Shown: positions 11,590-40,787 of the stretch, piece by piece
Numbering within the stretch: position 1 is the stretch's first letter
Layout of the letters: each line of letters starts with the position of its first letter
NCBI RefSeq assembly: GCF_900129325.1
Contig: NZ_FQUP01000004.1
Coordinates: forward strand, 62,001-126,000
Length of the DNA: 64,000 nt
Reading direction: 5' to 3'
DNA from: Kaistia soli DSM 19436
Lineage (GTDB): Bacteria; Pseudomonadota; Alphaproteobacteria; Rhizobiales; Kaistiaceae
The notes under the pieces: model-generated
The model's database searches: none
Told to the model about the DNA's origin: nothing
What the model saw: only the letters and a program-made list of their open reading frames with translations
Translations under genes and position numbers: made by a program

Positions 11590-11629
11590 TATGAAGGGAG
11601 CGATCGCGACGCCGCAGAGAGGACGAGAC

Positions 11630-12982: not shown

Positions 12983-12993
12983 GGAGGAAGGAC

Positions 12994-22020: not shown

Positions 22021-23337
22021 ATGGACAGCCTCGAGCAGAACATCGCCAAGCGGGTTGAGGAGCGCACCGACCGCATCGTCGAGACCTTGAGCGATCTGGT
22101 CCGTTTCCCGTCGATCGTCCTGTCAGACCCGACCAAGGCGGGTCCCGGCGAGCGCGACTGCCAGCTCTACCTCCAACAGCGCCTCGAGGCGCTCGGCTTC
22201 ACCACCGATCTGTGGGAGCCGGACGGTCCTGCGCTCTATGAAAAGTACAAGGGACGCCCCGGCGCCAACAAGGGGCGCACCTTCGTCGGACGGCCCAATC
22301 TCGGTGGCGTGCTGCGTGGCAACGGCAGCGGCCGCTCCATCATGCTGAACGGCCATATCGACGTGGTCCCGCCGAGTGCAGCTGAACACTGGAAGACCGA
22401 GCCGTTCACCCCTGTGCTTCAGGACGGCAAGCTCTATGGGCGCGGTTCCGTCGACATGAAGGGCGGCGTCACCTGCATGCTGATGGCGATCGAGGTCCTG
22501 AAGGAGCTCGGCGTACCGCTGTCCGGAGACGTGGTGTTCACGACTGTGGTCGACGAAGAGATTGGCGGCATGGGCTCGCTTGCCATGGTCGACCGCGGCT
22601 TCAAGGCCGATGCCGGCATCATGACCGAGCCGACGGCGAACCGGATCGCTCCGCTCTGCCACGGCGTCGTCTGGGGCCGGATCGTCATCGACGGCATTGG
22701 CGGCCATGCGGAACTAACGCCACGTGCCTGGTATGAGGCGGGTCCCGTCGACGCCATCCAGCTCTGCCGCCAGATGCTCGACGGGATTGATATCCTCAAC
22801 CGGCGCTGGATGACCGATCCCAGGAAGATGCACCCCCTGATGGACATGCCCAACCAGATCATGGTGACGCAGATGCAGGCCGGCGAGCATCCGGCCTCGA
22901 CCGCCGGCCGGGCCGAGATCGTGATCGACGCGCAGTACCTGCCGAGCGAGAAGGACGAGTTCGGGCTTGGCGGCCACGTCAAGCGTGAGATCGAGGAGCA
23001 CATAGCCTTCGTCTGCCAGGCCGATCCTTATCTCCGAGCACATCCGGCCCGCATCGAATGGATCCTCGACGCCGACTGCGCCGAGGTGCCAGCCGAGCAC
23101 CCGTTCGTGCAGACGATGCAGGGCGCCTGCGCGGCGACCGGCCTGTCGCCTGTGCTGGCGGGCTTCGGCCCCCATTCGGACATTGGCCTGCCGAGCGGGC
23201 TTGGCGAGACGCCGACCATCAATTTTGGCCCCGGCGATCCGACGCAAGCCCATCAGGCGAACGAGCATCTCGCCGTCAGCGATCTGGTCGAGTGCACCAA
23301 GGCGATCGCCATCGCAGTGGCCCGCTGGTGCGCGTAG
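22021..23337 (+). CDS. M20-family metallohydrolase (ArgE/DapE type)
   Basis: A 438-residue zinc-dependent amide or peptide hydrolase with no signal peptide. Metal and catalytic segments: LNGHIDVVPPSAAEH (His and catalytic Asp), GRGSVDMKGGVTCML (bridging Asp), VVDEEIGGMGSLAM (catalytic Glu pair) and DPTQAHQANEHLAVSDL (terminal His). A dimerisation lid contains GIGGHAELTPRAW. Size and motifs match acetylornithine deacetylase/succinyl-diaminopimelate desuccinylase relatives. It ends the operon two bases after the permease, so it probably removes an acyl or carbamoyl group from the imported compound; substrate unknown. Confidence 0.92.
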   Translation: MDSLEQNIAKRVEERTDRIVETLSDLVRFPSIVLSDPTKAGPGERDCQLYLQQRLEALGFTTDLWEPDGPALYEKYKGRPGANKGRTFVGRPNLGGVLRGNGSGRSIMLNGHIDVVPPSAAEHWKTEPFTPVLQDGKLYGRGSVDMKGGVTCMLMAIEVLKELGVPLSGDVVFTTVVDEEIGGMGSLAMVDRGFKADAGIMTEPTANRIAPLCHGVVWGRIVIDGIGGHAELTPRAWYEAGPVDAIQLCRQMLDGIDILNRRWMTDPRKMHPLMDMPNQIMVTQMQAGEHPASTAGRAEIVIDAQYLPSEKDEFGLGGHVKREIEEHIAFVCQADPYLRAHPARIEWILDADCAEVPAEHPFVQTMQGACAATGLSPVLAGFGPHSDIGLPSGLGETPTINFGPGDPTQAHQANEHLAVSDLVECTKAIAIAVARWCA

Positions 23338-23389: not shown

Positions 23390-23537
23390 AACAAAGTTCA
23401 TCTCTTATGCTGCGCGCATCAGATTTGGACAGACGCTGCTTTATTCTTCAGCATACATCGTTCGAACGGAATAATTCTCGCAGAATCTTTGATAAACCGC
23501 TTGTCTCGGTTCAAAACGCTGCTAGCGTGAAGCGTCT

Positions 23538-23552
23538 TGTAAACCGGTTACG
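23538..23552. promoter_or_regulatory. LacI-type operator just upstream of the lacI-like gene
   Basis: GTAA-ACCGG-TTAC (23539-23551) with core AACCGGTT (23542-23549) resembles the LacI/GalR consensus TGTAAACCGGTTTACA. It ends 15 bases before ATG 23567, a position suited to autorepression of the whole regulator-transporter operon. Confidence 0.6.
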
Positions 23553-23566: not shown

Positions 23567-24652
23567 ATGAGCGCGAAGGTATCCCGATTGTCCGATGTCG
23601 CCCGCACCGCAGAGGTGTCGGTTGCCACGGTTTCGCGCTTTCTCAACAACCGTCTGCAGCTTCCGGAGGAGACGGCGGCGCGGATCCGGCGCGCCGTCGC
23701 CGAACACGAATACACGCCCAATCCGCATGCGAGAAATCTGTCTCTCGGCCGCTCCGAGACGATCGCGCTGGTCGTTCCGGACATAGCAAACCCCTATTTC
23801 GCCAGGCTAGCAGCGGCGGTGGAGCGCGAGGCCGGCCAGCAGGGCTATGCATTGACGCTGTGCGCCTCGCTCAACACGCTGCAGCGCGAGCGCGAATACA
23901 TTGCGCGACTCAGCGGCAGCGCGGTCGATGGCATCATCTTCGTCAGCAACCACGCCGACGACGGCACGTTGCGCGATCCCATCAATGCGAGCAGCCGCCG
24001 GGTCGTCATTCTCGACGAGGATGTGGGCGGCGTCGTTGGCCCGCGCGTCTTCAGCGACAATGAGTTGGGCGGCTATTTGGCTGGCCGCCATCTGATCGAG
24101 ATGGGGCACCGGTCGATTGCTTTCTTCGGCGGCCCGCAGGCGATGCGCAGTACCGAGGCGCGTCTGGCCGGAATCCGCCGGGCCATCGCCGAATCCAACC
24201 AGCATGTCGTCATTCGCGATGAGTTTTTCGGGGCTTATTCGCCTGAGCACGGCCGCGCCTGCGCCTCGCGATTTCTGTCGTCCGGCAGCGAGGCGACGGC
24301 CCTTCTCGTATCCAGCGATGAGATCATGATCGGCGCGCTGGAGATCTTCCGCCGCGAAGGCATCCGCTTGCCGAGCCAGCTGTCGGTGATCGGCTTCGAT
24401 GACATCGCGCCATTCGTCCTGTTCGACCCGCCGCTGACCTCGATCCGGCAGCCGGTGGAGATGATGGGGCGCCGCGCCGTCGACCTGCTGATCCGTAGCC
24501 TCAGGGGCGAGGATCTCGACAGAGTGATCGAATATCTGCCCGTCGAGCTGATCCTGCGCGGATCAGTTTCTCATCCGCGGGCAGGCAAAAGACTGCCACC
24601 AAGCGCAGATAACCAGAAAGAGGGGAATGAACATGATGAAATCGACGCTTAA
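23567..24652 (+). CDS. LacI-family transcriptional regulator
   Basis: A 361-residue repressor. The N-terminal helix-turn-helix reads SRLSDVARTAEVSVATVSRF, followed by the hinge TPNPHARNLSLGRSETIALV, then a Peripla_BP_3 domain (VPDIANPYFARLAAAVEREA, LSVIGFDDIAPFVLFDPPLT). The ATG at 23567 has only a weak ribosome site; GTG 23552 is an alternative. It is unusual in being the first gene of the operon: its last codons overlap the start of the binding-protein gene, so repressor and receptor are co-translated. Likely autoregulated through 23538-23552, with a sugar or nucleoside as inducer. Confidence 0.93.
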   Translation: MSAKVSRLSDVARTAEVSVATVSRFLNNRLQLPEETAARIRRAVAEHEYTPNPHARNLSLGRSETIALVVPDIANPYFARLAAAVEREAGQQGYALTLCASLNTLQREREYIARLSGSAVDGIIFVSNHADDGTLRDPINASSRRVVILDEDVGGVVGPRVFSDNELGGYLAGRHLIEMGHRSIAFFGGPQAMRSTEARLAGIRRAIAESNQHVVIRDEFFGAYSPEHGRACASRFLSSGSEATALLVSSDEIMIGALEIFRREGIRLPSQLSVIGFDDIAPFVLFDPPLTSIRQPVEMMGRRAVDLLIRSLRGEDLDRVIEYLPVELILRGSVSHPRAGKRLPPSADNQKEGNEHDEIDA

Positions 24653-25571
24653 GCTTCTCGCGACCTCGACAATGCTCGTCGCCTTGGCGGCGACCGGCGC
24701 CAGCGCGGCCGGCAAGACCTTCGCGCTCATCCAGTATAATCAGCAGGTCTCGTTCTTCACGGACATCACCCGCGGCGCACAGGAGGCTGCCAAGGCCTCG
24801 GGCGACGAGTTGCTGGTGTTCGACGCCAACAATTCCGCGCAGGCCCAGGACAGCGCCTTCGATACCTACATCCAGCAGAAGGTCGACGGCATCATTATCG
24901 TGTCGGTCGACCAGAACGGCGTCATGCCCGCTGTGCGCACCGCTTCCGAGGCCGGCATTCCGGTCGTGGCCGTGGACGGCGTGCTGCCGGAAGGCCCGCA
25001 GAAGGCGCAGATCTCGGTCGACAGCTACACGGCCGGCAAGCTGATCGGCGAGTTCTATGTCGACTACGTCAAGAAGAACATGGGCGGCAAAGTCACCCTC
25101 GGCAGCGTCGGTGCGCTGAACTCCGATCTTCAGAACCTGCGCCAGAAGGGCTTTGACGAGGTCGTCAATGCCGCCGGCGTTGCGACCAGCGTCGGTGTCG
25201 TCGACGGCCGCAATATCCAGGATCAGGCATTGGCTGCGGCCGAGAACCTCCTCACCGGCAATCCCGATCTGCAGACCCTCTATGCGACCGGTGAGCCCGC
25301 CCTGGTGGGCGCGGTCGCCGCTGCAGAAAGCCAGGGACGGACCGACAAGATCAAGCTGTTCGGCTGGGACCTGAGCGCCCAGGCGATCGCGGCGATCGAT
25401 CAGGGCTTCCTCGTCGGCGTGGTGCAGCAGGATCCCTTCCTCGAAGGAAAGAAGGCCGTCGAGGCATTGGTGACCTTGGCCGGCGGCGGCAGCGTCGAGA
25501 AGGAAATCAAGGTGCCCGTGACGATCGTCACGAAGGAGAATGTCGACGCTTTCCGCGCGCAGTTCAAATGA
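24633..25571 (+). CDS. CUT2 sugar-binding protein (RbsB type)
   Basis: A periplasmic receptor of 312 residues: signal peptide MMKSTLKLLATSTMLVALAA with cleavage after ASA, then FALIQYNQQVSFFTDITRGA, VDGIIIVSVDQNGVMPAVRT, IPVVAVDGVLPEGPQKAQIS and KLFGWDLSAQAIAAIDQGFL. Three nearby ATGs exist (24627, 24633, 24636); 24633 gives the best seven-base spacing from GAGGGG. The start overlaps the end of the LacI gene by 20 bases, and the stop overlaps the ATPase start by four. Together with the ribokinase and BtpA downstream, the ligand may be a riboside. Confidence 0.93.
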   Translation: MMKSTLKLLATSTMLVALAATGASAAGKTFALIQYNQQVSFFTDITRGAQEAAKASGDELLVFDANNSAQAQDSAFDTYIQQKVDGIIIVSVDQNGVMPAVRTASEAGIPVVAVDGVLPEGPQKAQISVDSYTAGKLIGEFYVDYVKKNMGGKVTLGSVGALNSDLQNLRQKGFDEVVNAAGVATSVGVVDGRNIQDQALAAAENLLTGNPDLQTLYATGEPALVGAVAAAESQGRTDKIKLFGWDLSAQAIAAIDQGFLVGVVQQDPFLEGKKAVEALVTLAGGGSVEKEIKVPVTIVTKENVDAFRAQFK

Positions 25572-26353
25572 GCGCGCTCAACGTCACGGAGGCGGCTTCG
25601 GCCGCCTCCGGTTCCCCGCCAGCGAGACCTCGGATGCGCGTCCGCGGCATTCGAAAGAGCTTCGGATCGATCGAGGCGTTGCGCGGCGTCGATCTCGATC
25701 TATGGCCCGGCGAATGCCTGGGCCTGGTCGGCGACAACGCCGCAGGCAAATCGACCTTCACCAAGATCCTCGCCGGAACATACCTGCCGGACGCGGGCAC
25801 GATCGAGCTCGACGGCAAGGAAATCGCCTATTCCGGTCCGGCCGAGGCGCGTGGCTACGGCGTAGAGATGGTCTATCAGGACCTCAGCCTTTGCGACACG
25901 ATCGACGTCGCGGGCAACCTCTATCTCGGCCGCGAGATCAGTAAGGGACCGTTTCTGGACAAGGCGGCGATGCAGCGCGGCGCGCATGAAATGCTGCGCA
26001 AGCTGGAGATCCGCATTCCCAACACGGCGCTAAAGGTCGCGCAGCTCTCGGGCGGCCAGCGACAGTCCATCGCCATCGCGCGTTCGGCAGCCTTCGATCC
26101 CAATGTTCTGATCCTCGACGAGCCGACATCGGCGCTCGCCGTGGCCGAGGTCGAGGCCGTGCTCGCCTTGATCAACAGGCTGAAGGCAAAGGGTGTCGCC
26201 GTCGTGCTGATCACGCACCGTCTGCAGGACCTCTTCCGCGTCTGTGATCGGATCGCCGTCATGTATGAGGGCACCAAAGTCGCCGAGCGGGCAATCGCCG
26301 AGACCAATCTCGAGGACATCGTCCGCCTGATCGTTGGAGAGGGGCACCGCTGA
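25568..26353 (+). CDS. CUT2 ABC transporter ATP-binding protein, single ABC domain
   Basis: A 261-residue FrcA-like ATPase: Walker A GDNAAGKST (Ala where Gly is usual, Lys and Ser intact), MVYQDLSLCDTIDVAGNLYL, signature LSGGQRQSIAIARSA, Walker B VLILDEPTSALAVAEV and LITHRLQDLF. ATG 25568 overlaps the binding-protein stop (ATGA) and the TGA overlaps the permease start (TGATG), so translation is tightly coupled. Energises the permease at 26353. Confidence 0.94.
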   Translation: MSALNVTEAASAASGSPPARPRMRVRGIRKSFGSIEALRGVDLDLWPGECLGLVGDNAAGKSTFTKILAGTYLPDAGTIELDGKEIAYSGPAEARGYGVEMVYQDLSLCDTIDVAGNLYLGREISKGPFLDKAAMQRGAHEMLRKLEIRIPNTALKVAQLSGGQRQSIAIARSAAFDPNVLILDEPTSALAVAEVEAVLALINRLKAKGVAVVLITHRLQDLFRVCDRIAVMYEGTKVAERAIAETNLEDIVRLIVGEGHR

Positions 26354-27348
26354 TGACGCTCTATACCGAACGCCAGAGTGGCTCCCGTCTCAGGGACTTC
26401 TTCGAAAGCCACGCGCATGTGCTGTCGATCGCCGTCTTCCTGATCGCTTGCTGCGCGCTGTTCACGTCCATCAACGACGTGTTCCTGTCTCCCGGCAATC
26501 TGCTCAACCTGCTTCGGCAGGCGGCGCCGACGCTGATCGTCGCCGTGGCCATGACATTCGTGATCACCACCGGCGGTATCGATCTTTCCGTCGGCTCGAT
26601 CATCGCCCTCGTCAATGCGTCGGCCGCCCTGCTGCTGCGGGCTGGCTGGGACTGGCCCGTTGTCTCGGTGCTGATGCTGATGCTGGGTGCTGTGATCGGC
26701 CTCTTTCAAGGTTATTTCGTCGCCTATCAGCGCATACCGGCCTTCATCGTCACGCTTGCCGGGCTTTCGGCGATCCGCGGCATCGCGCTGGTGCTGACGG
26801 GCGGCTTCTCGATCCTCATTCCGCCCGGTCTGTTCCTCAGCATCGGACGCGGCACGCTCTTCGGCATTCCGTCGCCTGCTCTGATGGGGCTGGCGGTGGC
26901 GCTGATCGGCTTCATCGTGCTGAACTTTACGGTCTATGGCCGGCATGTCTGTGCCGTCGGCGCCAATGCTGAGGCTGCGCGGCGCGTCGGCATCCCGGCG
27001 AGGCGCGTCGTCGCGTCCGTCTATGTGTGGAGCGGCGTTGCTGCGGCGCTGGCCGCTCTGGTGGTGGCTGCGCGACTGGGCTCCGGCTCGTCCAATGCGG
27101 CTGTTGGCACCGAGCTCGACGTGATTGCTGCGGTGGTGCTGGGCGGCACCTCGCTGATGGGCGGCCGCGGGACCATCGTCGGCACCGTCATGGGCGCGCT
27201 GACGATCTCGGTGATCAGCAACGGTCTCATTCTCTCGAAGATCGATGCGTTCTACACGCAGATCGTGACCGGCGCGATCATCCTGATCGCAATCTGGGTG
27301 AACACCCGCATCTTCGATCAGGTCGGCAGCGTCCGGCGCAAGAGCTGA
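26353..27348 (+). CDS. CUT2 sugar ABC transporter permease
   Basis: A 331-residue RbsC-type membrane protein: FLSPGNLLNLLRQAAPTLIV, MTFVITTGGIDLSVGSIIAL, YQRIPAFIVTLAGLSAIRGI, DVIAAVVLGGTSLMGGRGTI. It is the only permease in this operon, so a homodimer is expected, unlike the two-permease system at 20091-22018. The phosphotriesterase-like gene follows after 12 bases. Confidence 0.95.
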   Translation: MTLYTERQSGSRLRDFFESHAHVLSIAVFLIACCALFTSINDVFLSPGNLLNLLRQAAPTLIVAVAMTFVITTGGIDLSVGSIIALVNASAALLLRAGWDWPVVSVLMLMLGAVIGLFQGYFVAYQRIPAFIVTLAGLSAIRGIALVLTGGFSILIPPGLFLSIGRGTLFGIPSPALMGLAVALIGFIVLNFTVYGRHVCAVGANAEAARRVGIPARRVVASVYVWSGVAAALAALVVAARLGSGSSNAAVGTELDVIAAVVLGGTSLMGGRGTIVGTVMGALTISVISNGLILSKIDAFYTQIVTGAIILIAIWVNTRIFDQVGSVRRKS

Positions 27349-27360: not shown

Positions 27361-28422
27361 ATGAGCGAGCTTTCCGTTGCGCATGTGGGATCTGGGCAGG
27401 TCATGACGGTGACCGGACCCATTTCCGCGGACGCGCTTGGCGTCACGCTGATGCACGAGCACATCCTCAATGACTGCACATGCTGGTGGCATGCGCCAAA
27501 AACGCCCGAGCGCCAGCATCTGGCGTCTAGCTTCGTCTGTATCGAAATCCTCGGCGAGCTCCGCCAGGATCCGTTCGTCAACAAGCACAACATCCGGCTC
27601 GACGACGAACAACTGGCGGTCGCCGAGCTGAAGGATTTCGAGGGCCAGGGGGGCAGGACGGTCGTCGAGCCAACCTGTCAGGGGATCGGCCGCGATCCGC
27701 TGGCGCTGCGCCGCATCTCTGAGGCGTCCAATCTCAATGTGGTCATGGGCGCCGGCTTCTATCTCGCCGGCTCGCATCCGGCCAAGGTCGCGGCCATGTC
27801 TGTCGACGAGATCGCAGACGAGATCGTGCGAGAGGCAACGGTCGGCGCTGATGGAACCGACGTCAAGATCGGCATCATCGGCGAGATCGGCGTTTCAGCG
27901 GCCTTCACCGCCGACGAGGAGAAATCCTTGCGCGGTGCGGCCCGAGCGCAGATACGGACCGGATTGCCACTGATGGTGCACCTGCCGGGCTGGCTTCGGC
28001 TCGGCCACAGCGTGCTCGACATCGTTGCGGCCGAGGGTGCCGACCTAAAGCACACCGTGCTCTGTCACATGAACCCGTCGCATGACGACCTCGGCTACCA
28101 GAGCGAGATCGCAGCGCGCGGCGCCTTCGTCGAATATGACATGATCGGCATGGACTTCTTCTATGCCGATCAACAGGTCCAGTGCCCGAGCGACGAGGAA
28201 GCCGCCCGCGCCATCGTCAAGCTGATCGAGCGCGGGTATGGCGACCGCGTGCTGCTGTCGCACGACGTATTCATCAAGATGATGCTGACGCGCTACGGCG
28301 GCAATGGCTACGGATACATCCTGCGCCATTTCCTGCCGCGGCTCCGCCGCCATGGGGTGTCGGAAGACGCGATCCGCACGCTGCTGGTCAACAATCCCCG
28401 CAGCGTCTTCTCATCCCGATGA
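27361..28422 (+). CDS. Phosphotriesterase-family metal-dependent hydrolase (lactonase-like)
   Basis: A 353-residue amidohydrolase-superfamily protein. Binuclear metal site: LMHEHILNDCTCWW (His-x-His), KIGIIGEIGVSAAF (Glu where classical phosphotriesterase has carboxylated Lys, as in PHP/lactonase members), LPLMVHLPGW (His), TVLCHMNPSHDDLG (His) and VLLSHDVFIKMML (Asp). Such homologues commonly hydrolyse lactones or esters. ATG 27361 follows GAGGG by nine bases, and the gene belongs to the LacI-transporter operon. It converges with the ribokinase. It may open a sugar lactone formed from the imported compound. Confidence 0.9.
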   Translation: MSELSVAHVGSGQVMTVTGPISADALGVTLMHEHILNDCTCWWHAPKTPERQHLASSFVCIEILGELRQDPFVNKHNIRLDDEQLAVAELKDFEGQGGRTVVEPTCQGIGRDPLALRRISEASNLNVVMGAGFYLAGSHPAKVAAMSVDEIADEIVREATVGADGTDVKIGIIGEIGVSAAFTADEEKSLRGAARAQIRTGLPLMVHLPGWLRLGHSVLDIVAAEGADLKHTVLCHMNPSHDDLGYQSEIAARGAFVEYDMIGMDFFYADQQVQCPSDEEAARAIVKLIERGYGDRVLLSHDVFIKMMLTRYGGNGYGYILRHFLPRLRRHGVSEDAIRTLLVNNPRSVFSSR

Positions 28423-28479
28423 TGGCCAGCCGCTAGCATGACCTCCGCTCGCCTCCTCGGAGTGCTCTCCCCTGTCGCC

Positions 28480-29385
28480 TTAGGCGGGCGCCTTCAGCTT
28501 CAGGATGGCCGCGATCTCGTTTCTCGCCGGGAAGGACGCGAGCGTGCCCGCGCGCTGCACTGTAATCGCCGCCGCAAGGCTGGCCGCACGGAGAGCGGCG
28601 ATCCCGGTCATGCGGTGCGTGAACAGACCCGCCGCCAGGACCCCCATGAAAGTGTCGCCGGCGCCCGTCGTGTCGACGACCTCGACCGTGTCGGCGGAAA
28701 CGTGGTGCAGGCCGCTTGCGTCGCAGAAAACGGCGCCCCGACCGCCAAGTGTCACGATGACCTCGCGGACCCCGGCATCGCGCAAGGCCTTTGCCGAGGC
28801 TACGGCGGAGAACTCCTGGCTGAGCGACCGCGCCTCGCCCTCATTGACGACCAGCACGTCGACCATCCCGAGCAGTTCCCCATGGCCGGCATGCAGCGGC
28901 GACGGGTTGAACAGGGTGTGGATGCCGGCCCGGCGCGCTGCGGCAAACCCGGCCCGGGTGGCGTCGAGCGAAAGATTGCCCTGCATCAGGATTTGGTCGC
29001 CGGCGGCAAGGTCTCCGACGAGCGCCTCAACGGTGTCGGGTTTGATCGAGAGGCTGGCGTTGACGGTGCTGACGATGGCGTTCTCGCCATTGGGGTCGAT
29101 GAAGATCAGCGAGCGGTCGGTCGCCGTGGCGGCGATCATCAGCTCATCGACATTCAATCCTTCGGAGGCGAGCGCGTCCGCCACCCAGCGGCCGTCGGCA
29201 TCATTGCCGATCGCGGCCACGAAGCGGACATCCGCGCCTGCACGCGCCGCAACGATTGCCTGATTGGCGCCCTTGCCTCCCAAATCCCGCTTCGGAGCCC
29301 CGGCGATGATCGTCTGGCCGGGCGACGGCCATGTCTCGACGCCCATGGCTTCGTCGACCGTCGCGTTACCCAACACCAGAAGCAT
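28480..29385 (-). CDS. Ribokinase-like PfkB carbohydrate kinase
   Basis: A 301-residue kinase with close ribokinase motifs: MLLVLGNATVDEAMGVETWP, KRDLGGKGANQAIVAARAGA (the GGKGANQA motif), IHTLFNPSPLHAG, VLVVNEGEARSLS and VDTTGAGDTFMGVLAAGLFT with the catalytic Asp. It is encoded opposite to its neighbours: convergent with the phosphotriesterase gene and divergent (25 bases) from the second BtpA gene, so it probably shares a promoter region with the ureide cluster. It probably phosphorylates ribose or a related pentose released by that pathway. Confidence 0.92.
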   Translation of the reverse strand: MLLVLGNATVDEAMGVETWPSPGQTIIAGAPKRDLGGKGANQAIVAARAGADVRFVAAIGNDADGRWVADALASEGLNVDELMIAATATDRSLIFIDPNGENAIVSTVNASLSIKPDTVEALVGDLAAGDQILMQGNLSLDATRAGFAAARRAGIHTLFNPSPLHAGHGELLGMVDVLVVNEGEARSLSQEFSAVASAKALRDAGVREVIVTLGGRGAVFCDASGLHHVSADTVEVVDTTGAGDTFMGVLAAGLFTHRMTGIAALRAASLAAAITVQRAGTLASFPARNEIAAILKLKAPA

Positions 29386-29410
29386 GAGATGCCACCTTGA
29401 AGAGAAAGTA

Positions 29411-30256
29411 ATGTCTCAGACATCTAGCAAAGAAAATAATATCATCAAGAAGATTTTTGGAAGAACGCAGGTCATTATCGGCGTCGTTCATTGTCCGCCT
29501 ATGCCTGGATCTCCACGCTATAAGCGAGATGATTTCAAGATCAGCATAGATAAAGCGGTTGACGATGCGGATAACTACGTTGCCGGCGGTGTCGATGGTC
29601 TTATTATCGAGAATCATGGCGACATCCCCTTCGTCAAGCCGGGCGATATTGGGTATGAGGTGGCCGCCGGCCTCGCCGTGATCACCGACCGTATCCGGCA
29701 GCGCACCGACATCCCGCTCGGGATCAATGTCCTTGCCAATGCGGCGCGTCCGGCCCTGGCCATCGCCAAGACGGCTGGTGCCGCCTTCGTGCGCGTCAAT
29801 CAATGGGCCAACGCCTATGTCGCCAATGAGGGCTTTATCGAAGGAGAGGCGGCATCGGCGCTTCGCTATCGCGCCGCGATCGCCGCCGAGGATGTCGCGA
29901 TCTTCGCCGACGCTCATGTGAAGCATGGCTCGCACGCGATCGTTGCCGACCGTTCGGTGACAGAACTGGTGCGCGACGTCGCGTTCTTCGATGCTGACGC
30001 CGTGATCTGCACCGGCCAGCGGACAGGCGATGCGGCGGCGCTCGACGAGATCCAGACCATGCGCGATGCGACGAACCTGCCACTCCTGGTCGGCAGCGGC
30101 GTCACGCCCGACAATGTCGGCTCCATGCTGCCGCTTCTCGATGGGCTGATCATCGCCAGCGCGCTGAAATCCGGCGGCGTCTGGTGGAACCCCGTCGAGC
30201 GGGGCCGTGTCGAAGCCTTCATGAACAAGGTCCATGCCATCCGGCCGGCCGCTTGA
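29411..30256 (+). CDS. BtpA/SgcQ-family TIM-barrel protein (copy 2)
   Basis: A 281-residue paralogue of the protein at 17255. Shared blocks: GVVHCPPMPGSPRYKRDD, GGVDGLIIENHGDIPFVKPG, VRVNQWANAYVANEGFIEGE and IFADAHVKHGSHAIVADRSV, then LPLLVGSGVTPDNVGSM and GGVWWNPVERGRVEAFM. ATG 29411 is chosen because a purine-rich AAGAGAAAG precedes it and the N-terminus (MSQTSSKENNIIKKIFG) leads into the first strand. The first 230 bases are markedly AT-richer, with different codon choice from the rest, which suggests a mosaic gene. It is the first of a six-gene run ending at 34806. Reaction unknown. Confidence 0.88.
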   Translation: MSQTSSKENNIIKKIFGRTQVIIGVVHCPPMPGSPRYKRDDFKISIDKAVDDADNYVAGGVDGLIIENHGDIPFVKPGDIGYEVAAGLAVITDRIRQRTDIPLGINVLANAARPALAIAKTAGAAFVRVNQWANAYVANEGFIEGEAASALRYRAAIAAEDVAIFADAHVKHGSHAIVADRSVTELVRDVAFFDADAVICTGQRTGDAAALDEIQTMRDATNLPLLVGSGVTPDNVGSMLPLLDGLIIASALKSGGVWWNPVERGRVEAFMNKVHAIRPAA

Positions 30257-30266
30257 GGAATTCTCC

Positions 30267-30920
30267 GTGACCCAATCGAAGACCCCGCTCTCCGAGCGCA
30301 TCCGCGTCGCAAGCCAGCCGGCCTGGGACGGGATGCAGGAGCACCCATTCGTCACCGCGATCGAGGCCGACAGGCTCTCTGACGCCGAGTTCCGCGCCTA
30401 TCTGATCTACGAATGCGACTTCGTCGAAACGGCGATGCTGATCTTCGGCCACATGTTGGTGAAAGCCCCCGGCCTTGAAGAAAGACGTTGGCTGGCCGGC
30501 GTGCTGCAGGCTCTCGCGGTCGAGCAGATCGGCTATTTCGAGACGACTTTCGCAAAGCTGGGAATCACAACTGAGGTGCGTGCCAAGGCGATGCCGCCCT
30601 CGGTTCTCGCCTTCCGCGATGGCATGCTGAAGATCGCGGCCGAGGGCAATTATCTCGACGGGGTCGCCATCATGCTCGCGGCCGAATGGATGTACGCGAC
30701 GTGGTGCAGCCGGGCCGCGAAATGCACGATTTCGAACCCTGTGCTCAAACGCTGGGTAGACCTCCATGCAGAGCCCGAATTCCTGGCGCAGGCCGATTGG
30801 CTGCGCCGGCAGATCGACAGCGCCACGCCGGCGCTGGAACCGCAACTGGCGGCGAGCTTTCGCCATGCGCTGGAACTGGAAATCGACTTCCACACCGCCC
30901 CGCTGGAAAGGACCGCGTGA
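30267..30920 (+). CDS. TenA/thiaminase-II-like protein apparently lacking the catalytic Cys
   Basis: A 217-residue all-helical protein of the TenA/PqqC fold: PLSERIRVASQPAWDGMQEH, RAYLIYECDFVETAMLIFGH, AVEQIGYFETTFAKLG, GVAIMLAAEWMYATWCSRAA. TenA enzymes with thiaminase activity carry Cys in an LPC-x-W segment; here the aligned segment is MLAAEW with Ala, so it may belong to the TenA_E class or have a new role. GTG 30267 has GAGGA seven bases upstream. The stop overlaps the hydantoinase ATG. There is no TPP riboswitch or thiamine gene nearby; the context is ureide breakdown instead. Confidence 0.78.
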   Translation: MTQSKTPLSERIRVASQPAWDGMQEHPFVTAIEADRLSDAEFRAYLIYECDFVETAMLIFGHMLVKAPGLEERRWLAGVLQALAVEQIGYFETTFAKLGITTEVRAKAMPPSVLAFRDGMLKIAAEGNYLDGVAIMLAAEWMYATWCSRAAKCTISNPVLKRWVDLHAEPEFLAQADWLRRQIDSATPALEPQLAASFRHALELEIDFHTAPLERTA

Positions 30921-32377
30921 TGCAGGACGACTATGATCTGGTGATCCGAGGCGGCACGGTCGTCAGCGCGACGCAGGTATTCCGCGCCGATGTGGCGATC
31001 CGCGGCGAAACCATTGCGGCTATTGGCGATGGTCTGCGCGCTCCGAAGGAAATCGACGCCGGCGGCCTGCTGGTCATGCCGGGAGGAGTCGACACCCATT
31101 GCCATCTCGATCAGGTCGAGCCCGGCATGGGTTATGGCGCCGAGAACTTTTTCAGCGGCAGCCAATCGGCCCTGCGCGGCGGCACGACCTCGGCGATCTC
31201 CTTCGTCACCCAGTTCAAGGGCGAGCCGATCCGGGAGGTACTGGCCGAAACGCTCAGGCGCGGGCGCCGCTCGATCATCGATTACAGCTTCCACCAGATC
31301 ATCACCGATCCGAGCGACGAGGTGATTGCGGAGATTCCGGCCGTCGTGGCCTCGGGCATACGAAGCCTGAAGGTGTTCCTGACCTATGATGGCGCGCGGC
31401 TCGACGACCGGCAGTATCTGAAGGTGCTGGCTGCGGCGAGGCGCGAAGGCGCGATGACCGTCGTGCATTGCGAAAACTACGACGCCATCGGCTGGATGAC
31501 GGAACAGCTTCTCGCGGCGGGGCTGACGGCGCCAAAATATCATGCCTGGTCGCGGCCGAAGGTGGTGGAACGCGAGGCCACCTACCGGGCCATCGCGCTG
31601 GCCGAACTGGTCGATACGCCGATCCAGGTCTTCCACGTTTCCTGCGCGGAAGTGGCCGAAGAAATCGCGCGGGCCAAGCTGCGCGGCCTCAAGGTCTGGG
31701 GCGAAACCTGCCCGCAATATTTCGCGATCAGCGCGGCCGACATGGCACGCGAGAATTTCGAGGGTGCGAAATACATGTGCAGCCCGGCCCCGCGCGACGT
31801 CCAGGACCGGGAGGGACTGTGGGAGATGATGCGGCGCGGCGTCCTTGACGTCGTCTCGTCGGACCACAGCGCCTTCAATTTCACTGGCGCCTTCGCCAAG
31901 GACATGAATGGCCGCGACGCGCCGTTCCGCGATATTCCGAACGGCGTTCCGGGTGTCGGAACGCGCATGCCGCTGCTGTTCTCCGAAGGCGTGGTCAAGG
32001 GGAAGATCGACCTTCCAACCTTCGTGGGCCTGACGGCGACCAATCCGGCCCGCATTTTCGGCCTCGAAGGCAGGAAGGGCGCGATCGTGCCCGGAGCCGA
32101 CGCCGACATCGTCTTATGGGATGCTGCCAAGACGCGGACGGTCACGAATGCCGATCTGCACCACGCGGTTGACCACACGCCCTATGAGGGCCGCGAGGTG
32201 ACCGGCTGGCCGGTCGTCACGCTCAGGCGCGGCGAAGTGGTGATGCGTGACGGCGAGGTGACCGGCGCGGAGGGAAGCGGCGCGTTCCTGGCCCGCGGCC
32301 CCTACGCCATCGCCACGCCGACCGGGCATCTCCCCAATGGCTTCGACGCTTCCACCGCGACGCTCGCAACGACCTGA
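30920..32377 (+). CDS. Hydantoinase/dihydropyrimidinase-family cyclic amidohydrolase (possible allantoinase)
   Basis: A 485-residue binuclear zinc hydrolase. Ligands: MPGGVDTHCHLDQVEPG (His-x-His), GIRSLKVFLTYDGARLDD (carboxylated Lys, and the Tyr of hydantoinases), TVVHCENYDAIGWM (His), QVFHVSCAEVAEEI (His) and VVSSDHSAFNFTGAF (Asp). It opens cyclic diamide rings such as dihydropyrimidines, hydantoins or allantoin. The motifs look closer to D-hydantoinase, yet the adjacent ureidoglycine aminohydrolase and allantoate amidohydrolase make allantoin or a relative a strong candidate. It starts at ATG 30920, overlapping the TenA-like stop by one base. Confidence 0.92.
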   Translation: MQDDYDLVIRGGTVVSATQVFRADVAIRGETIAAIGDGLRAPKEIDAGGLLVMPGGVDTHCHLDQVEPGMGYGAENFFSGSQSALRGGTTSAISFVTQFKGEPIREVLAETLRRGRRSIIDYSFHQIITDPSDEVIAEIPAVVASGIRSLKVFLTYDGARLDDRQYLKVLAAARREGAMTVVHCENYDAIGWMTEQLLAAGLTAPKYHAWSRPKVVEREATYRAIALAELVDTPIQVFHVSCAEVAEEIARAKLRGLKVWGETCPQYFAISAADMARENFEGAKYMCSPAPRDVQDREGLWEMMRRGVLDVVSSDHSAFNFTGAFAKDMNGRDAPFRDIPNGVPGVGTRMPLLFSEGVVKGKIDLPTFVGLTATNPARIFGLEGRKGAIVPGADADIVLWDAAKTRTVTNADLHHAVDHTPYEGREVTGWPVVTLRRGEVVMRDGEVTGAEGSGAFLARGPYAIATPTGHLPNGFDASTATLATT

Positions 32378-32395
32378 TTCACGCAAGGACCTCAA

Positions 32396-32779
32396 ATGAA
32401 CGACATCACCCGCGTCGCGATCGACGAGATGCCAACGAAATCCAAGAACGCCATCTACCATTTTCCAGGCGGCGGCGGTCTCTTGTGGTGCGTGGCGACC
32501 TCCGAGGACCTGTCGCTCGACCTGCCGCAGCAGGCGGAAAATGCGCTCGGCGTCATCGACCGCTATCTGAAATCCTACGGCCTCGACCGCACCCGCATCG
32601 TGCGCGCCGAAGTGATCGTGACCGACCATGGCCGCAAGCCGGAATTCGATGCCGTCTGGGCGAAATGGATGCCAGAGGGCAAGGGCCCCGTACGCTCCTT
32701 CGTTCAATCGGTCATGCCTGATGGCGACCAGGTCGAAATCATCATGACGGTCGCTCTGCCGGCCGACTTCAAGGGTTGA
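32396..32779 (+). CDS. RidA/YjgF-family deaminase-like protein
   Basis: A 127-residue trimeric-fold protein: AIYHFPGGGGLLWCVATSED, QQAENALGVIDRYLKSYGLD, RIVRAEVIVTDHGRKPEFDA, MPDGDQVEIIMTVALPADF. The usual Arg that binds the carboxylate of imines in the RidA subfamily (near the C-terminus, in a (C/R)VE-type motif) is not obvious; the equivalent reads QVEIIMTVAL. Members near pyrimidine or ureide genes (for example RutC-like) hydrolyse reactive enamines or aminoacrylates. It lies 18 bases after the hydantoinase and four before the ureidoglycine aminohydrolase. Confidence 0.87.
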   Translation: MNDITRVAIDEMPTKSKNAIYHFPGGGGLLWCVATSEDLSLDLPQQAENALGVIDRYLKSYGLDRTRIVRAEVIVTDHGRKPEFDAVWAKWMPEGKGPVRSFVQSVMPDGDQVEIIMTVALPADFKG

Positions 32780-32783
32780 GCCG

Positions 32784-33578
32784 ATGCATCCCTCTTCCAT
32801 GAAAGTGAAACCCGGCCGTATCGCGCCCGGCGCCTTCGGGCACACGCGCGGCACGGTGAAGCGCAATTATGCCGTCATGCCGCCGGAAGGCATCATGGAC
32901 AGCTATCTGCCGCGCTGGGAACGCACGGTGGTCCGCTTCCAGGCCGCGCCGCAGCTTGGCGCGCGCTTTGCCCAGGCTGTGCTCGAAATCGCGGAAGGCG
33001 GCGGCACGCGGGAGGCGTTCTCCGATGAGCTGGAACGGTTGCTTTATGTGCTCGAGGGCTCTGTGGAGCTGACGGTGGAGGGCATTGCCAGCCGCCTCGA
33101 TCCGGAGGGCTATGTCTATCTGCCACCGAATGCCAAATTCTCGGTGCGCAATATCGGCCCCGGCGAGGCAAGGGTGCTGGGCATCAAGAAGCCCTATGTC
33201 TCGATCGGGCTGCCGCCGCCGGACTTGATCATTTCAAAGCGCAACGATCTCGAGAAGATCAACCATAACGGCACAGAGGGGCGCACTTGGGAGCATCTAC
33301 TGCCCTATGGCGACATGCGCTTCGACATGGAGCTGAACATCCTGTCCTTCGCGCCGGGCACCCATTTCCCGGATGTCGAAACCCACATCATGGAGCATGG
33401 GCTCTACATGCTCGAGGGACAGGGCATGTATCTCCTCGACCAGGATTGGCACGAGGTCTGGAAGGACGACTTCATCTGGATGGGACCGTTCTGCCCGCAG
33501 CTGTTCTATCCGACCGGCTGGGAAACCTCGGCCTACCTCCTCTACAAGGATGTGAACCGGGATGTCAGTTTCGGATAG
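32784..33578 (+). CDS. allE: (S)-ureidoglycine aminohydrolase (bicupin)
   Basis: A 264-residue two-cupin enzyme that releases ammonia from (S)-ureidoglycine to give (S)-ureidoglycolate in allantoin breakdown. The N-terminal cupin includes LERLLYVLEGSVELTVEG; the C-terminal cupin carries the Mn site E-x-H-x3-H in VETHIMEHGLYMLEGQGMY and the Gln in PFCPQLFYPTGW. KDVNRD at the end is typical of the family, as is the length. It overlaps the allantoate amidohydrolase gene by 17 bases, so the two pathway steps are co-translated. Assignment strong. Confidence 0.93.
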   Translation: MHPSSMKVKPGRIAPGAFGHTRGTVKRNYAVMPPEGIMDSYLPRWERTVVRFQAAPQLGARFAQAVLEIAEGGGTREAFSDELERLLYVLEGSVELTVEGIASRLDPEGYVYLPPNAKFSVRNIGPGEARVLGIKKPYVSIGLPPPDLIISKRNDLEKINHNGTEGRTWEHLLPYGDMRFDMELNILSFAPGTHFPDVETHIMEHGLYMLEGQGMYLLDQDWHEVWKDDFIWMGPFCPQLFYPTGWETSAYLLYKDVNRDVSFG

Positions 33579-34806
33579 GCGAACCGAGGCCGAACGGGCC
33601 TGGCAGCGCCTCGAAATCCTGGCGGCCTGCACGGACGAGCCGGGACGGATTACCAGGCTCGCCTTCTCGCCGGCATTGAAAGAGGCGAACGATCTCGTTC
33701 TCGGCTGGATGCGGGAGATCGGCATGGCTGCGTCGATCGATGCGGCTGGCAACGTCGTCGGCCGATATGCGGGTGCTGCCGAGGACGCGCCGGCGATCAT
33801 GCTCGGCTCGCATCTCGACACGGTTCGAGACGGCGGCCGCTATGACGGAGCGCTGGGCGTGGTCGCAGGACTGGCCGTCGTCGAACGGCTGGCCTCCGCG
33901 TCATGTCGGCTGCCTGTCGCTATCGAGGTCGTGGGTTTTGCAGACGAAGAGGGGACCAGATTTGGCGGCTCTGTCTTGGGCAGCATGGCCATGGCGGGCC
34001 TCGAACCGTCCGGCTGGGCAGCCCGCGTTGACATCGAAGGCGTTTCAGCGGGACAGGCCGCGATCGCGTTCGGCCTCGACCCGGCGCGTGTGTTCGAGGC
34101 CTCGCGCCGTGACACGCCCCCTTCGGCCTATATCGAGCTTCACATCGAACAGGGCCCCGTCCTCGAAGACCGCGGCGTTGCCCTTGGCTGCGTGTCCGGG
34201 ATCGCCGGTGCATTGCGTGCAAAGGTAACGGTTTCAGGCGAAGCCGGCCATGCCGGCACCGTTCCCATGGACATGCGGGCGGATTCGCTCGTGGCGGCGA
34301 GCGAATGCATTCTCGCGGTCGAAAGGATCGCCAAGCAGTTTCAATGCATTGCGACGGTAGGGCAGATACGGTGCCATCCAAACGCAACCAATGTCATCGC
34401 CGGCAGCGTCACCTTTTCGCTGGACCTCCGATCTATTGAAGACGGCAGAAAGAGCGCGGCGGCAGAGGATATGTTTCGTGCGTTTGGAATAATCGCAGCG
34501 AGCCGAGGGGTTCTTGTCGAGACCGAGATTACGTCCGACACGAATTCGACGTTATGCGATCCTCGCCTCACCGGCATCATTCGCAAAGCACTGGACGAAA
34601 CCGGATGCCCCGTCATCGAAATGCCAAGCGGCGCAGGTCATGACGGCCTGAACGTCGCGCACATCGCGCCGATCGCTATGATCTTTGTCCGCTGCGCACG
34701 CGGTTTGAGTCATCATCCTGATGAGTCGATCACGATTGATGATCTGGCGATGGGTATCGAGGCTGTCGTCAAGACATGCACGATGGCTGCAGGCGAATAT
34801 GACTGA
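33562..34806 (+). CDS. allC: Allantoate amidohydrolase / N-carbamoyl amino acid hydrolase (M20 family)
   Basis: A 414-residue M20-family enzyme expected to hydrolyse allantoate to (S)-ureidoglycine, ammonia and CO2, or an N-carbamoyl amino acid. Metal ligands: IMLGSHLDTVRDGG (His), RYDGALGVVAGLAV (Asp), GFADEEGTRFGGSV (Glu pair), AYIELHIEQGPVLED (His) and GLSHHPDESITIDD (His); PSGAGHDGLNVA is also conserved. It begins inside the aminohydrolase gene. Because its product is the substrate of that neighbour, the allantoate reading is preferred over beta-ureidopropionase or hydantoin use. Last gene of the run. Confidence 0.9.
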   Translation: MSVSDRRTEAERAWQRLEILAACTDEPGRITRLAFSPALKEANDLVLGWMREIGMAASIDAAGNVVGRYAGAAEDAPAIMLGSHLDTVRDGGRYDGALGVVAGLAVVERLASASCRLPVAIEVVGFADEEGTRFGGSVLGSMAMAGLEPSGWAARVDIEGVSAGQAAIAFGLDPARVFEASRRDTPPSAYIELHIEQGPVLEDRGVALGCVSGIAGALRAKVTVSGEAGHAGTVPMDMRADSLVAASECILAVERIAKQFQCIATVGQIRCHPNATNVIAGSVTFSLDLRSIEDGRKSAAAEDMFRAFGIIAASRGVLVETEITSDTNSTLCDPRLTGIIRKALDETGCPVIEMPSGAGHDGLNVAHIAPIAMIFVRCARGLSHHPDESITIDDLAMGIEAVVKTCTMAAGEYD

Positions 34807-34905: not shown

Positions 34906-35090
34906 TCAATGTCTAGGCTGCCCCTTGCTTAGGCGGTCAATGCCCGCCACAGCCTGCGGGGTAATTGGATATTCGTAGTCCATGCCACCGAGCTCATAAA
35001 GCCGCCGCTTTTTGAACCGCACAACCGAAATTGTACTCGGATCCTCGCCCGCATCCAGTATCGCGCGCCCATCCTCTTTTATGTAGCATT
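34906..35090 (-). pseudogene. Fragment of an unidentified protein
   Basis: On the minus strand about 60 codons read like real protein: WQCYIKEDGRAILDAGEDP, STISVVRFKKRRLYELGGMD, YEYPITPQAVAGIDRLSKGQ, then a stop. No start codon lies nearby in this frame, and upstream it runs into the antisense of the gamma-glutamyltransferase gene, so it appears 5'-truncated. The 318 bases between the allantoate and glutamyltransferase genes hold nothing else I can name. Confidence 0.35.
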
Positions 35091-35124
35091 GCCAGGCGCG
35101 TTGTTTCGAAGGCGGTTCATCAAA

Positions 35125-36876
35125 ATGCTGCGGTTCTCCTTGGTTCTGGTTGGCGTAGGTCTTTTGGCCACCCCAGCGCTGGCGGCGTCGCCTGCCCCTG
35201 TCGAGGGGCAGCGAGGCATGGTGGCGAGCGACCAGGCGCTTGCGGCGGAAGTTGGCGCCGAGATCCTCAGAGCCGGCGGCAACGCCGTGGATGCCGCGGT
35301 GGCGGTCGGATATGCCCAGGCCGTCGTCAATCCATGCTGCGGCAACCTTGGCGGCGGTGGCTTCATGACTCTGCGCCTTGCCGATGGGCAGGCCGTGTTC
35401 ATCGATTTTCGGGAGGCTGCGCCCAAGGCCGCCGGTCCTAATGTCTTTCTTGACGATCAGGGCAAAGTCATTCCGCGCGCCAGCCTCGATGGCTGGAGGG
35501 CCGCCGGCGTATCGGGCACGGTCGCCGGTCTCGAGCTCGCGCTTTCGAGATTCGGAACAATGAAGCGCGCTGACGTGATGGCACCGGCGATCCGGTTGGC
35601 GCGCGATGGCTTCATCCTCACTCGTCCAGATGCCGACATCATCGCGACGGGATCGGCCGCTTTCCGGGCTGATCCAGCGCTCGCGCACTACTGGCTCCAC
35701 GATGGCGAGCCGCTCAAGGCCGGCGACAGTCTCGTCCAGTCACAACTGGCAACGACGCTGCAGGGCATTTCCGATCAAGGGCCCGACTATTTCTATAAGG
35801 GCCCGATCGCCGCGGCGATTGTCGCAGCAAGCGAAAAGAACAATGGGCTCTTCAGCCTTGACGACTTCGCGAACTATACGGCGCGGATCGGCAAGCCGCT
35901 TGAATGCTCCTATCGGGGATACGAGATCCTGACGGCCGCGCCACCAAGCGCCGGTGGGCTCGCCGTTTGCGAGATCCTCAACATTCTCGAATTCTATCCC
36001 GTCGGCTATCTCGGTTTCGGCTCGGCCGATACGGTCCATCTGATGACGGAGGCCATGCGCCATGCCTTTGTCGACCGCAACTCCGCGATCGGTGATCCAG
36101 CCTTCGTCAAGAACCCCGTCGAGCGGCTGATCTCCAAGGACTATGCAGCTGCGCTTCGGCTGACCATCGACCCGTACAAGGCGACGCCTTCCGAGACTTT
36201 GTCCGGCACCACGTCGCCCCATGAAGGCACCGAGACGACGAGCTTCTCGGTCGTCGACAAGGCAGGCAATGCGGTCGCTGTCACCTATTCGCTCAACGCC
36301 TATTTCGGAGCCCGCGTCATGGCGCCCGGTACAGGGTTCTTCCTGAACGATACGATGGACGACTTCACCATCAAGGTCGGCGCGGCCAACCTGTTCGGAC
36401 TCGTGCAGGGCGAAGCCAACGCCATCGCGCCCTCTAAAAGGCCGGTGAGTTCGATGGCCCCGACGATTGTAGTCAAGGACGGCCGGCCTTTCATGGTGCT
36501 TGGGAGCCCCGGCGGGTCGCGCATCATCACCGCCGTCGTCGAGACGATCCTCAATGTCGTGGATTTCGGCATGACCATCCAGGAGGCGGTCAATGCGCCG
36601 AGGGTGCATGCGCAATGGCTGCCGGACATTCTCTTTGCCGAACCCTATGCGCTGTCGCCCGACACGGTTCGTGCGCTAGCGGAACGCGGTCATACGGTTC
36701 GTCTGCAAAAACCCTGGGGCGCTGTCGAGGCCATTCTGCTCGGCAGCGGCGCGGCCCCTAAGGGCGAATTGCCGTCATTTGGCGACGATACGGTGCGCGG
36801 AGAGCTTCCACGCCCAGGATATATCTATGGCGGCCATGACGCTCGCCGTCCGGCCGGAGCCGCGATTGCCGAATGA
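35125..36876 (+). CDS. ggt: Gamma-glutamyltransferase, exported
   Basis: A 583-residue N-terminal nucleophile hydrolase that transfers or hydrolyses gamma-glutamyl groups, normally in the periplasm. Signal peptide MLRFSLVLVGVGLLATPALA at the start; MVASDQALAAEVGAEIL and GNAVDAAVAVGYAQAVVNPC are family blocks. The autocatalytic Thr is about residue 371 in GTETTSFSVVDKAGNAVAVT, with Ser where TTH is common. GSPGGSRI supplies the oxyanion Gly pair. ATG 35125 is preferred over an upstream TTG. Co-oriented with the ureide genes but 318 bases downstream, so possibly separate. Its stop lies only seven bases from the break in the truncated gene at 36883. Confidence 0.93.
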   Translation: MLRFSLVLVGVGLLATPALAASPAPVEGQRGMVASDQALAAEVGAEILRAGGNAVDAAVAVGYAQAVVNPCCGNLGGGGFMTLRLADGQAVFIDFREAAPKAAGPNVFLDDQGKVIPRASLDGWRAAGVSGTVAGLELALSRFGTMKRADVMAPAIRLARDGFILTRPDADIIATGSAAFRADPALAHYWLHDGEPLKAGDSLVQSQLATTLQGISDQGPDYFYKGPIAAAIVAASEKNNGLFSLDDFANYTARIGKPLECSYRGYEILTAAPPSAGGLAVCEILNILEFYPVGYLGFGSADTVHLMTEAMRHAFVDRNSAIGDPAFVKNPVERLISKDYAAALRLTIDPYKATPSETLSGTTSPHEGTETTSFSVVDKAGNAVAVTYSLNAYFGARVMAPGTGFFLNDTMDDFTIKVGAANLFGLVQGEANAIAPSKRPVSSMAPTIVVKDGRPFMVLGSPGGSRIITAVVETILNVVDFGMTIQEAVNAPRVHAQWLPDILFAEPYALSPDTVRALAERGHTVRLQKPWGAVEAILLGSGAAPKGELPSFGDDTVRGELPRPGYIYGGHDARRPAGAAIAE

Positions 36877-39746: not shown

Positions 39747-39834
39747 ATTCACCCCTTCAACCAGATAAGCGGCGCCCCGGGTACGGCGGGAGGGGTTTGC
39801 GGCAGGGACAACTCAGGGAGGAGGCTACGGCAAC

Positions 39835-40380: not shown

Positions 40381-40787
40381 GAGAGCCTGTTGGATCCTCC
40401 GCGAAAGACCAGGCCGACAGGACGAACGTCGCGACGCGAAACGTCGCAACGCTCATTTTTGGTCGCAGCGTGCGAAGCTCTATATTACATAAGGGCTTAT
40501 GGGTAGATCGGCCCCATTCGTCGGCCGCCGCGGTGCGACGCTTGGAATCGCCTTTGCTTCGGTTCATCTCTCAAGCCGATTGGGACAGAAAGTGCGACGC
40601 TCGGTACTTCCGTTGCGTCCGGCGCATCCGAATGAAAGTGGCGCAACGCCAGCACCACACCGCCAGCACGCCAGCCGAGCTTATGGGGCCTCTTGGCGTG
40701 ATGGTTGGGCCACAAACCGTGTTTAGCGCGTCGCGAACAAGATGGGTTGGTAGCGGCCGTCGCTTCATAGATTGACTGGGAAAGACG
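40381..40787. other. Gap with a CGTCGCGACG palindrome
   Basis: No credible gene. A perfect 10-bp palindrome at 40427-40436 is followed by a near repeat (AACGTCGCAACG, about 40439-40450). This could be an attachment or promoter element of the lost integrative element, or chance. Confidence 0.3.

Follow-up and report, generated by a model that had tools for sequence, protein, structure and literature searches.

Kinase-first catabolism of a nucleoside is represented by PsuK/PsuG, which act on pseudouridine, and hydantoinase–carbamoylase operons are a second known system for comparison. Here, we describe a predicted catabolic locus in a 64,000-nt stretch of Kaistia soli DSM 19436 (GCF_900129325.1, contig NZ_FQUP01000004.1, forward-strand positions 62,001–126,000; hereafter, the window). 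The genus Kaistia is placed in Hyphomicrobiales. The entire locus spans approximately 15.4–34.8 kb and encodes CUT2 importers, PfkB kinases and BtpA proteins, two of each; eight genes at 27361–34806 form its distal half. Like PsuK/PsuG, it combines a PfkB kinase with a proposed subsequent cut of the sugar–base bond at the 5-phosphate level, but it has BtpA instead of PsuG, as well as a CUT2 importer and extra hydrolases. It shares a D-hydantoinase family enzyme and an M20 enzyme similar to N-carbamoyl-amino-acid hydrolases with the hydantoinase–carbamoylase operons; in contrast to them, it links these genes with others for BtpA, the kinase, TenA, Rid and ureidoglycine aminohydrolase (UGlyAH), and no racemase was found among the cluster genes.

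The allantoin/ureide pathway (AllB, allantoate amidohydrolase (AAH), UGlyAH, AllA) has the UGlyAH and M20 amidohydrolase families in common with the locus, whereas the hydantoinase of the locus is not AllB, its UGlyAH belongs to another clade and no PuuE, AllA or HIUH was seen in the cluster. The sgcABCEQX genes of E. coli also include a BtpA/SgcQ protein together with sugar uptake and a Zn-hydrolase-like protein. Their substrate and function are not established (PMC13343008). They use a PTS rather than a CUT2 importer with a kinase, and TenA, a phosphotriesterase-like metallohydrolase (PTE) and hydantoinase are missing from that operon. Searches of open-licence PMC papers, judged by titles and abstract openings, showed no description of the module reported below.

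Based on the analysis, the locus is a real, conserved and under-described catabolic unit. We tentatively suggest that it is controlled by LacI and serves the catabolism of an N-ribosyl (nucleoside-like) compound, which BtpA would cleave and whose hydantoin or ureide aglycone would then be broken down; the probability of this complete reading is roughly 0.4. As for its parts, N-ribosyl compounds are most likely the substrate class, judging from sequences and structural models, and an aglycone of the hydantoin or ureide kind is suggested by the gene content of the Kaistia variant.

Distribution of the module and its Kaistia variant

An earlier note on this DNA, made from the sequence alone, described the eight-gene run, and profile and Pfam scores agree with the families named there. 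The LacI gene and CUT2 importer that it placed next to the run were located at 23.55–27.35 kb. Its extent is right for the eight genes and the importer but too short for the locus, which starts at about 15.4 kb with GntR, kinase, BtpA2, CUT2-II and M20 genes that were not mentioned.

The importer, PTE, kinase, BtpA and TenA constitute a widespread module, which many members of the Alphaproteobacteria and Enterobacterales carry. When ten aligned BtpA proteins were used as the query of a scan, at least 528 relatives were confirmed, of which the best 80 named loci were retained, so the counts are biased to close kin. A module gene was considered present above 100 bits, and some loci were truncated by contig ends. 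Besides BtpA itself (80/80), these loci contained the kinase (76), the binding protein (74), the permease (74), a LacI-family match (73), the ATPase (72), PTE (70) and TenA (70). A GATase1-like gene (PF07090) was present in 66 loci and an M20 hydrolase in 53 (36 M20p and 17 AAH2). Eight annotated plasmid loci carried most of the module genes in a similar order; one of them, from Sagittula, showed no CUT2 importer or PTE. The unassigned genes around 88 loci formed clusters, not all of which were identified, and each of these clusters was limited to 8 loci or fewer.

In the Kaistia variant, the module is followed by a ureide cassette. Five genomes share the order LacI–binding protein–ATPase–permease–PTE–kinase–BtpA–TenA–hydantoinase–Rid–UGlyAH–amidohydrolase: that of the window, L238 (G396), L239 (G386), L240 (G392, corresponding to K. 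hirudinis L048) and L241 (G481). Since G481 comes from another family of the same order, the variant spans two families. GATase1-like, M20p and AAH2 genes gave no match in any of the five loci. Within the genus, a hydantoinase with at least 78% identity was found in 4 of 14 Kaistia genomes. For ten genes compared with L238, the nearest relative of the window, pairwise dN/dS was 0.04–0.21. These low values, together with the gene order recurring in five genomes of two families, indicate that the cluster is more than a chance arrangement. The start of the hydantoinase gene overlaps the TenA stop; the overlap is 1 base long in the window and 4 bases long in K. hirudinis. What is directly observed of the locus is its linkage, the set of genes that the variant carries, the gene overlaps and the low dN/dS.

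Two looser associations were found. In Sagittula, hydantoinase, a PotD-type transporter, RidA, UGlyAH and AAH are followed by GntR–kinase–BtpA and, further on, BtpA–TenA. In Fulvimarina (L050, 10427–11541), a broken C-terminal piece of UGlyAH lies behind TenA and an integrase-core gene, with 79% and 83% identity to the window and K. hirudinis proteins over 70 residues. The start of an M20 gene was also noticed by eye behind the same integrase-core gene.

Some further arrangements were observed. Fusions of a LacI helix-turn-helix domain with a PfkB kinase occur in Acidisoma and Skermanella (L065, 2744–3949; L106, 5817–7010), where they adjoin BtpA, TenA and kinase genes and PhyH-type dioxygenases. 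In Sagittula (L158, 20815–21889), two proteins without a Pfam match lie between its two BtpA genes.

Proteins of the module

All genes below lie on the plus strand unless stated otherwise. The PTE gene (27361–28422) matched PF02126 with 242 bits, and its product scored 565 bits against PDB 3k2g, which we take to be Rsp3690. The protein retains H32, H34, E175, H207, H236 and D302, presumably the metal ligands, as expected for the 3k2g/Rsp3690 group. Rsp3690 is credited with esterase activity (PMC5341072), and the animal PTE-related protein PTER, whose top structural match is 3k2g, with hydrolysis of the N-acyl bond of N-acetyltaurine (PMC11374699).

The kinase gene is located on the minus strand (28480–29385). 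What the earlier note called ribokinase is indeed a PfkB protein of the ribokinase-like type with its motifs kept, but TIGR02152 gave 232 bits (cut-off 300) and the protein has QGN instead of QLE, so it does not qualify as RbsK. N7, D11, GGK, N41, Q42 and QGN were invariant in 84/84 aligned module kinases (one per locus), whereas all four aligned ribokinases (1gqt, 6znx, 8cqx, 4x8f) have QLE at the QGN position; the Glu of QLE presumably contacts ribose. The nearest solved chain, 3i3y ('Carbohydrate kinase'), likewise has QGN. The motif suggests a C1-substituted ribose as the substrate.

The BtpA/SgcQ protein (29411–30256) scored 223 bits with TIGR00259 (cut-off 153). Its sequence gave only weak C-terminal matches to solved structures, mostly tryptophan synthase alpha. 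An AlphaFold2 model (pLDDT 84, pTM 0.87) predicts a phosphosugar-type TIM barrel, and its Foldseek matches included HisF, HisA, RPE, TrpA, TrpF, OMPDC and ThiE, which we take to bind phosphosugars or phosphate.

The TenA-like protein (30261–30920, open frame from 30234) matched PF03070 with 73 bits (cut-off 22), and its model (pLDDT 96.6) has a TenA fold by structure comparison. The thiaminase II model TIGR04306 gave only 46 bits against a cut-off of 130. The segment in which thiaminase II would probably carry its active-site Cys reads AEWMY here, with A141, E142 and W143 invariant. Rows from plasmid records were excluded from structure alignments A6 and A7. A distant TenA-like gene adjoins a hydroxyisourate hydrolase gene in another locus (L180, 9906–11210).

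The ureide cassette and the allantoin route

The cassette begins with a D-hydantoinase-type cyclic amidohydrolase (30920–32377), which scored 507 bits with TIGR02033 (cut-off 393) and 242 with the AllB model (cut-off 358). The PuuE model matched none of the eight genes; no AllB- or PuuE-type allantoinase is recognised in the cluster. The following RidA-family protein (32396–32779; PF01042 38 bits, cut-off 27) has PVR and VEI motifs, to which we ascribe a functional role. The next gene encodes a UGlyAH-like bicupin (32784–33578; TIGR03214 309 bits, cut-off 200), assigned to a divergent clade by the tree described below. The last product is an M20 carbamoylase/AAH-type enzyme (33562–34806), which barely passed NF006775 (486 bits, cut-off 479) and matched N-carbamoyl-L-amino acid hydrolase 3n5f best among PDB entries, with 296 bits vs. 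177 for allantoate amidohydrolase 1z2l. It is 40% identical to the other AAH of the genome and 32–34% to the two module-type AAH2 proteins compared.

Close relatives of the hydantoinase were also seen with FAD/2Fe-2S oxidoreductase, DAO and DHDPS-family genes (L159, 10703–16458; L160, by layout alone; L163). These neighbourhoods resemble hydroxyproline-type clusters.

The earlier note took the last genes for a recognised allantoin route. This is not borne out: judged by its sequences, the tail is not simply such a route, as the UGlyAH falls in its own clade, the hydantoinase is not AllB and other allantoin genes are located elsewhere in the genome. They include an AllB allantoinase (534 bits, cut-off 358) and an OHCU decarboxylase gene adjoining the second AAH (491 bits, cut-off 479). 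The note was correct that ureidoglycolate enzymes are absent from the cluster, but the genome has one ureidoglycolate lyase (PF04115; C7:372 kb), situated between two PuuE-like genes (364 and 122 bits, both below the cut-off of 425). It also reported no dedicated allantoin permease, and the genome search for NCS1 found none, with 4 of 14 controls positive. No allantoicase was found in the genome in a search in which no control was positive.

A UGlyAH search of the class sample matched 34/385 genomes. Besides our genome, 24 strong loci of 7–20 kb each were examined; nine weak matches and a second partial match in G154 were left out. PuuE, AllA or HIUH occurred nearby in 16/24 of these loci and RidA in one (G095), and none of the 24 contained BtpA, TenA, the module kinase or the window-type hydantoinase. 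A tree built from 21 UGlyAHs split the four proteins of the window, K. hirudinis, Sagittula and G095 from 17 others with 100/100 support, the bootstrap being not fully settled and six of 23 non-cassette loci and the Fulvimarina fragment being left out. Eleven of the 17 have PuuE, AllA or HIUH nearby. At 22 clade-separating columns, E. coli YlbA agrees with the window clade at seven and with the other clade at two. The E, H, H, Q and K positions, which we take to form the metal site and pocket, are invariant in all aligned rows, YlbA included, so ureidoglycine aminohydrolase activity is possible. Since the window UGlyAH is the sole one above the cut-off in the genome, it could still serve the genome's allantoin route.

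In G095 (L165, 11777–16230), the UGlyAH–Rid pair adjoins genes for an Asp/Asn beta-hydroxylase-like protein, a FAD-binding protein and a PLP enzyme.

Regulation, import and the upstream unit

The LacI-family regulator (23567–24652, open frame from 23552; Pfam LacI and Peripla_BP_3) is preceded by a putative operator, TTGTAAACCGGTTAC, at 23537–23551. Its core, AACCGGTT, recurs in module loci: 42/89 loci, mostly of Enterobacterales, have a site centred on it close to where the LacI or ATPase gene starts. The window version is common to L238, L239 and L240. The exact TGTAAACCGGTTAC occurs once in the whole genome, at the site before LacI, and four further matches carry two mismatches; a backward control of this search gave 4 and 9 matches. 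The strict palindrome GTAAACCGGTTTAC was not found in the genome with up to two mismatches. The generic LacI consensus was uninformative in the window (21 found vs. 14.8 expected), and an inverted-repeat search near LacI gave nothing useful.

The first importer, CUT2-I, consists of a binding protein (24627–25571; best PDB match 5hsg with 343 bits, followed by ribose binder 2fn8 with 108), an ATPase (25568–26353) and a permease (26353–27348). The latter two are open frames conserved across module loci.

The upstream unit is headed by a GntR/UTRA regulator on the minus strand (15399–16142; Pfam GntR 71 and UTRA 97 bits), which scored 217 bits against the GntR adjoining kinase–BtpA in Sagittula. 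It is followed by a second PfkB-family kinase (16359–17258, start uncertain within 16320–16386), with 233 bits by phmmer against the Sagittula kinase and 99.6 with TIGR02152, far under the cut-off, and by BtpA2 (17255–18097; TIGR00259 218 bits, cut-off 153). The two BtpA proteins of the window are 49% identical. The second importer, CUT2-II, comprises an ATPase (18290–19060; phmmer 393 bits vs. the Pantoea dispersa ATPase), an LsrB/rhamnose-binder-like binding protein (19085–20071; best PDB match 5gta, 153 bits), permease A (20091–21065; a gene call that served as the permease reference sequence in the locus comparison) and permease B (21062–22018; a gene call with 351 bits vs. a Pantoea permease). 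An M20 ArgE/DapE-type deacylase (22021–23337; TIGR01910 231 bits, cut-off 218) completes the unit. A similar CUT2-II/M20 unit adjoins the first module in Pantoea dispersa, and such units were found in 8/80 named loci, judged by the binding-protein score.

Proposed pathway and alternative explanations

Based on the protein families and models, we suggest the following pathway. The CUT2 importers would bring in an N-ribosyl compound. Then, the ribokinase-like enzyme, in keeping with its QGN motif, would phosphorylate the ribosyl 5-OH. BtpA, considering its fold and conserved residues, may bind the phosphoribosyl group and release or rearrange it to a pentose 5-phosphate. The TenA-like and PTE-like hydrolases would trim the molecule, in either order. 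In this variant only, the aglycone is proposed to be, or to become, a hydantoin or ureide that the hydantoinase opens. The M20 enzyme would then decarbamoylate the product, and the UGlyAH-like bicupin and RidA would deaminate it, yielding a glyoxylate-level acid, ammonia and CO2. As the hydantoinase was found in 1/80 named loci, only this variant would have a hydantoin as its aglycone. The earlier note had proposed a starting compound other than allantoin, for example, a ribosylated hydantoin, ureide or damaged nucleoside. This is partly supported: the cluster is a linked unit in several genomes, and what is seen of the importer, the kinase and BtpA would suit a ribosylated nitrogen compound more than it would suit free allantoin.

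A number of observations weigh against the proposed pathway. The cassette is intact in just 1/80 named loci and could be a neighbour gained for another purpose. G095 has the same UGlyAH–Rid pair without BtpA or hydantoinase within 20 kb. The GATase1-like gene is absent from 14/80 loci, of which 13 lack an intact cassette (a part of the 13, though not every one, is cut by contig ends); therefore, its "replacement" by the cassette is an interpretation. TenA had no match in 10/80 named loci and is missing from 3/8 annotated plasmid loci. The kinase, AAH and TenA genes show higher rates of evolution than the rest of the compared set. As for BtpA, its TM-scores by query length were moderate (0.46–0.62 among the 50 matches listed), its model has low confidence at 135–143 and 172–177, and the matched barrels catalyse a wide variety of reactions, some of which have nothing to do with ribose (CutC, PdxJ, ketopantoate hydroxymethyltransferase). 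The resemblance of the CUT2-I binding protein to ribose binders is distant (108 bits). The operator core was not found near LacI or the ATPase gene in 47/89 loci, and no TTGTAAACCGGTTAC-type operator was seen in L241.

The main rival to the proposed pathway is that two functions lie side by side, a ribose/N-glycoside module and a cassette for free hydantoin or allantoin on a shared transcript. It would explain why the cassette is missing from 79/80 named module loci, why relatives of the hydantoinase from this subfamily are also found in other gene neighbourhoods, and why the AAH is closer to the genome's other AAH than to the module-type AAH2. The UGlyAH keeps its metal and K residues as in YlbA, and with no other such protein above the cut-off in the genome, it may be needed for the genome's own allantoin route. 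We nevertheless consider this explanation rather unlikely, since genes overlap in two genomes, the cassette is conserved in five genomes of two families, Sagittula and Fulvimarina add two further associations, and the GATase1-like gene is absent from all five variant loci; moreover, an allantoinase, an AAH and a ureidoglycolate lyase are already encoded elsewhere in the genome.

TrpF and HisA, both among the Foldseek matches of BtpA, rearrange N-phosphoribosyl groups. This fits a different substrate, a non-nucleoside N-glycoside or acylated ribosylamine (Amadori-like or N-acyl), from which BtpA would form ribulose 5-phosphate in an isomerase- or lyase-type reaction, with PTE, M20 and UGlyAH acting as side-chain amide or ester hydrolases. 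The recurrence of M20 enzymes (M20p in 36/80 and AAH2 in 17/80 loci) is also consistent with it, as are the position of E. coli sgcQ alongside RPE-like SgcE and Zn-hydrolase-like SgcX (PMC13343008) and the N-acyl hydrolysis by PTER, matched to 3k2g (PMC11374699). The hydantoinase is left unexplained, and we regard this alternative as improbable. About as doubtful, or slightly more so, is the narrower proposal of a pathway devoted to hydantoin nucleosides (RNA nucleosides damaged by oxidation), in which BtpA would be a 5-phosphoribosyl-hydantoin glycosidase and the UGlyAH-like bicupin would belong to a route for hydantoin and not for allantoin. The candidates may include ribosides of 5-hydroxyhydantoin, guanidinohydantoin and allantoin. 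Salvage of thiamin pyrimidine, prompted by the TenA fold, is very improbable: TIGR04306 lies far below its cut-off, a second, distant TenA homologue is present at C7:592 kb and no other thiamin family exceeded its cut-off among the scanned cluster genes.

Three simpler assignments were dropped. Plain ribose use is at odds with the kinase score below the cut-off and the extra hydrolases; the pseudouridine kinase model gave 31.6 against a cut-off of 540; and for the reductive pyrimidine route, there is a separate hydantoinase, M20 and MMSDH cluster at C14.

Other features of the window

A gamma-glutamyltransferase gene (35089–36876) lies directly downstream and was not seen within the conserved cluster. 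Another sugar locus (5372–14049) includes a CUT2-type permease and ATPase, a Gfo/Idh/MocA dehydrogenase, a sugar-isomerase-like barrel, a ROK protein and two binding proteins. At 39096–42000, G+C falls to 0.54 (at 40–42 kb), possibly an island edge, near frames resembling, by eye, integrase remnants and a methyltransferase. A 1402-aa autotransporter with passenger repeats is encoded at 50327–54535. The Rfam scan of the window gave no matches, and the tRNA scan found none.

Significance of the module

We found no agreed joint role for BtpA/SgcQ, the 3k2g-type PTE, the 5hsg binder, the 3i3y-type kinase and the TenA-like protein, which here form one module. The Kaistia variant hints at the chemistry of the aglycone, so the role of BtpA could be tested with a short list of compounds.

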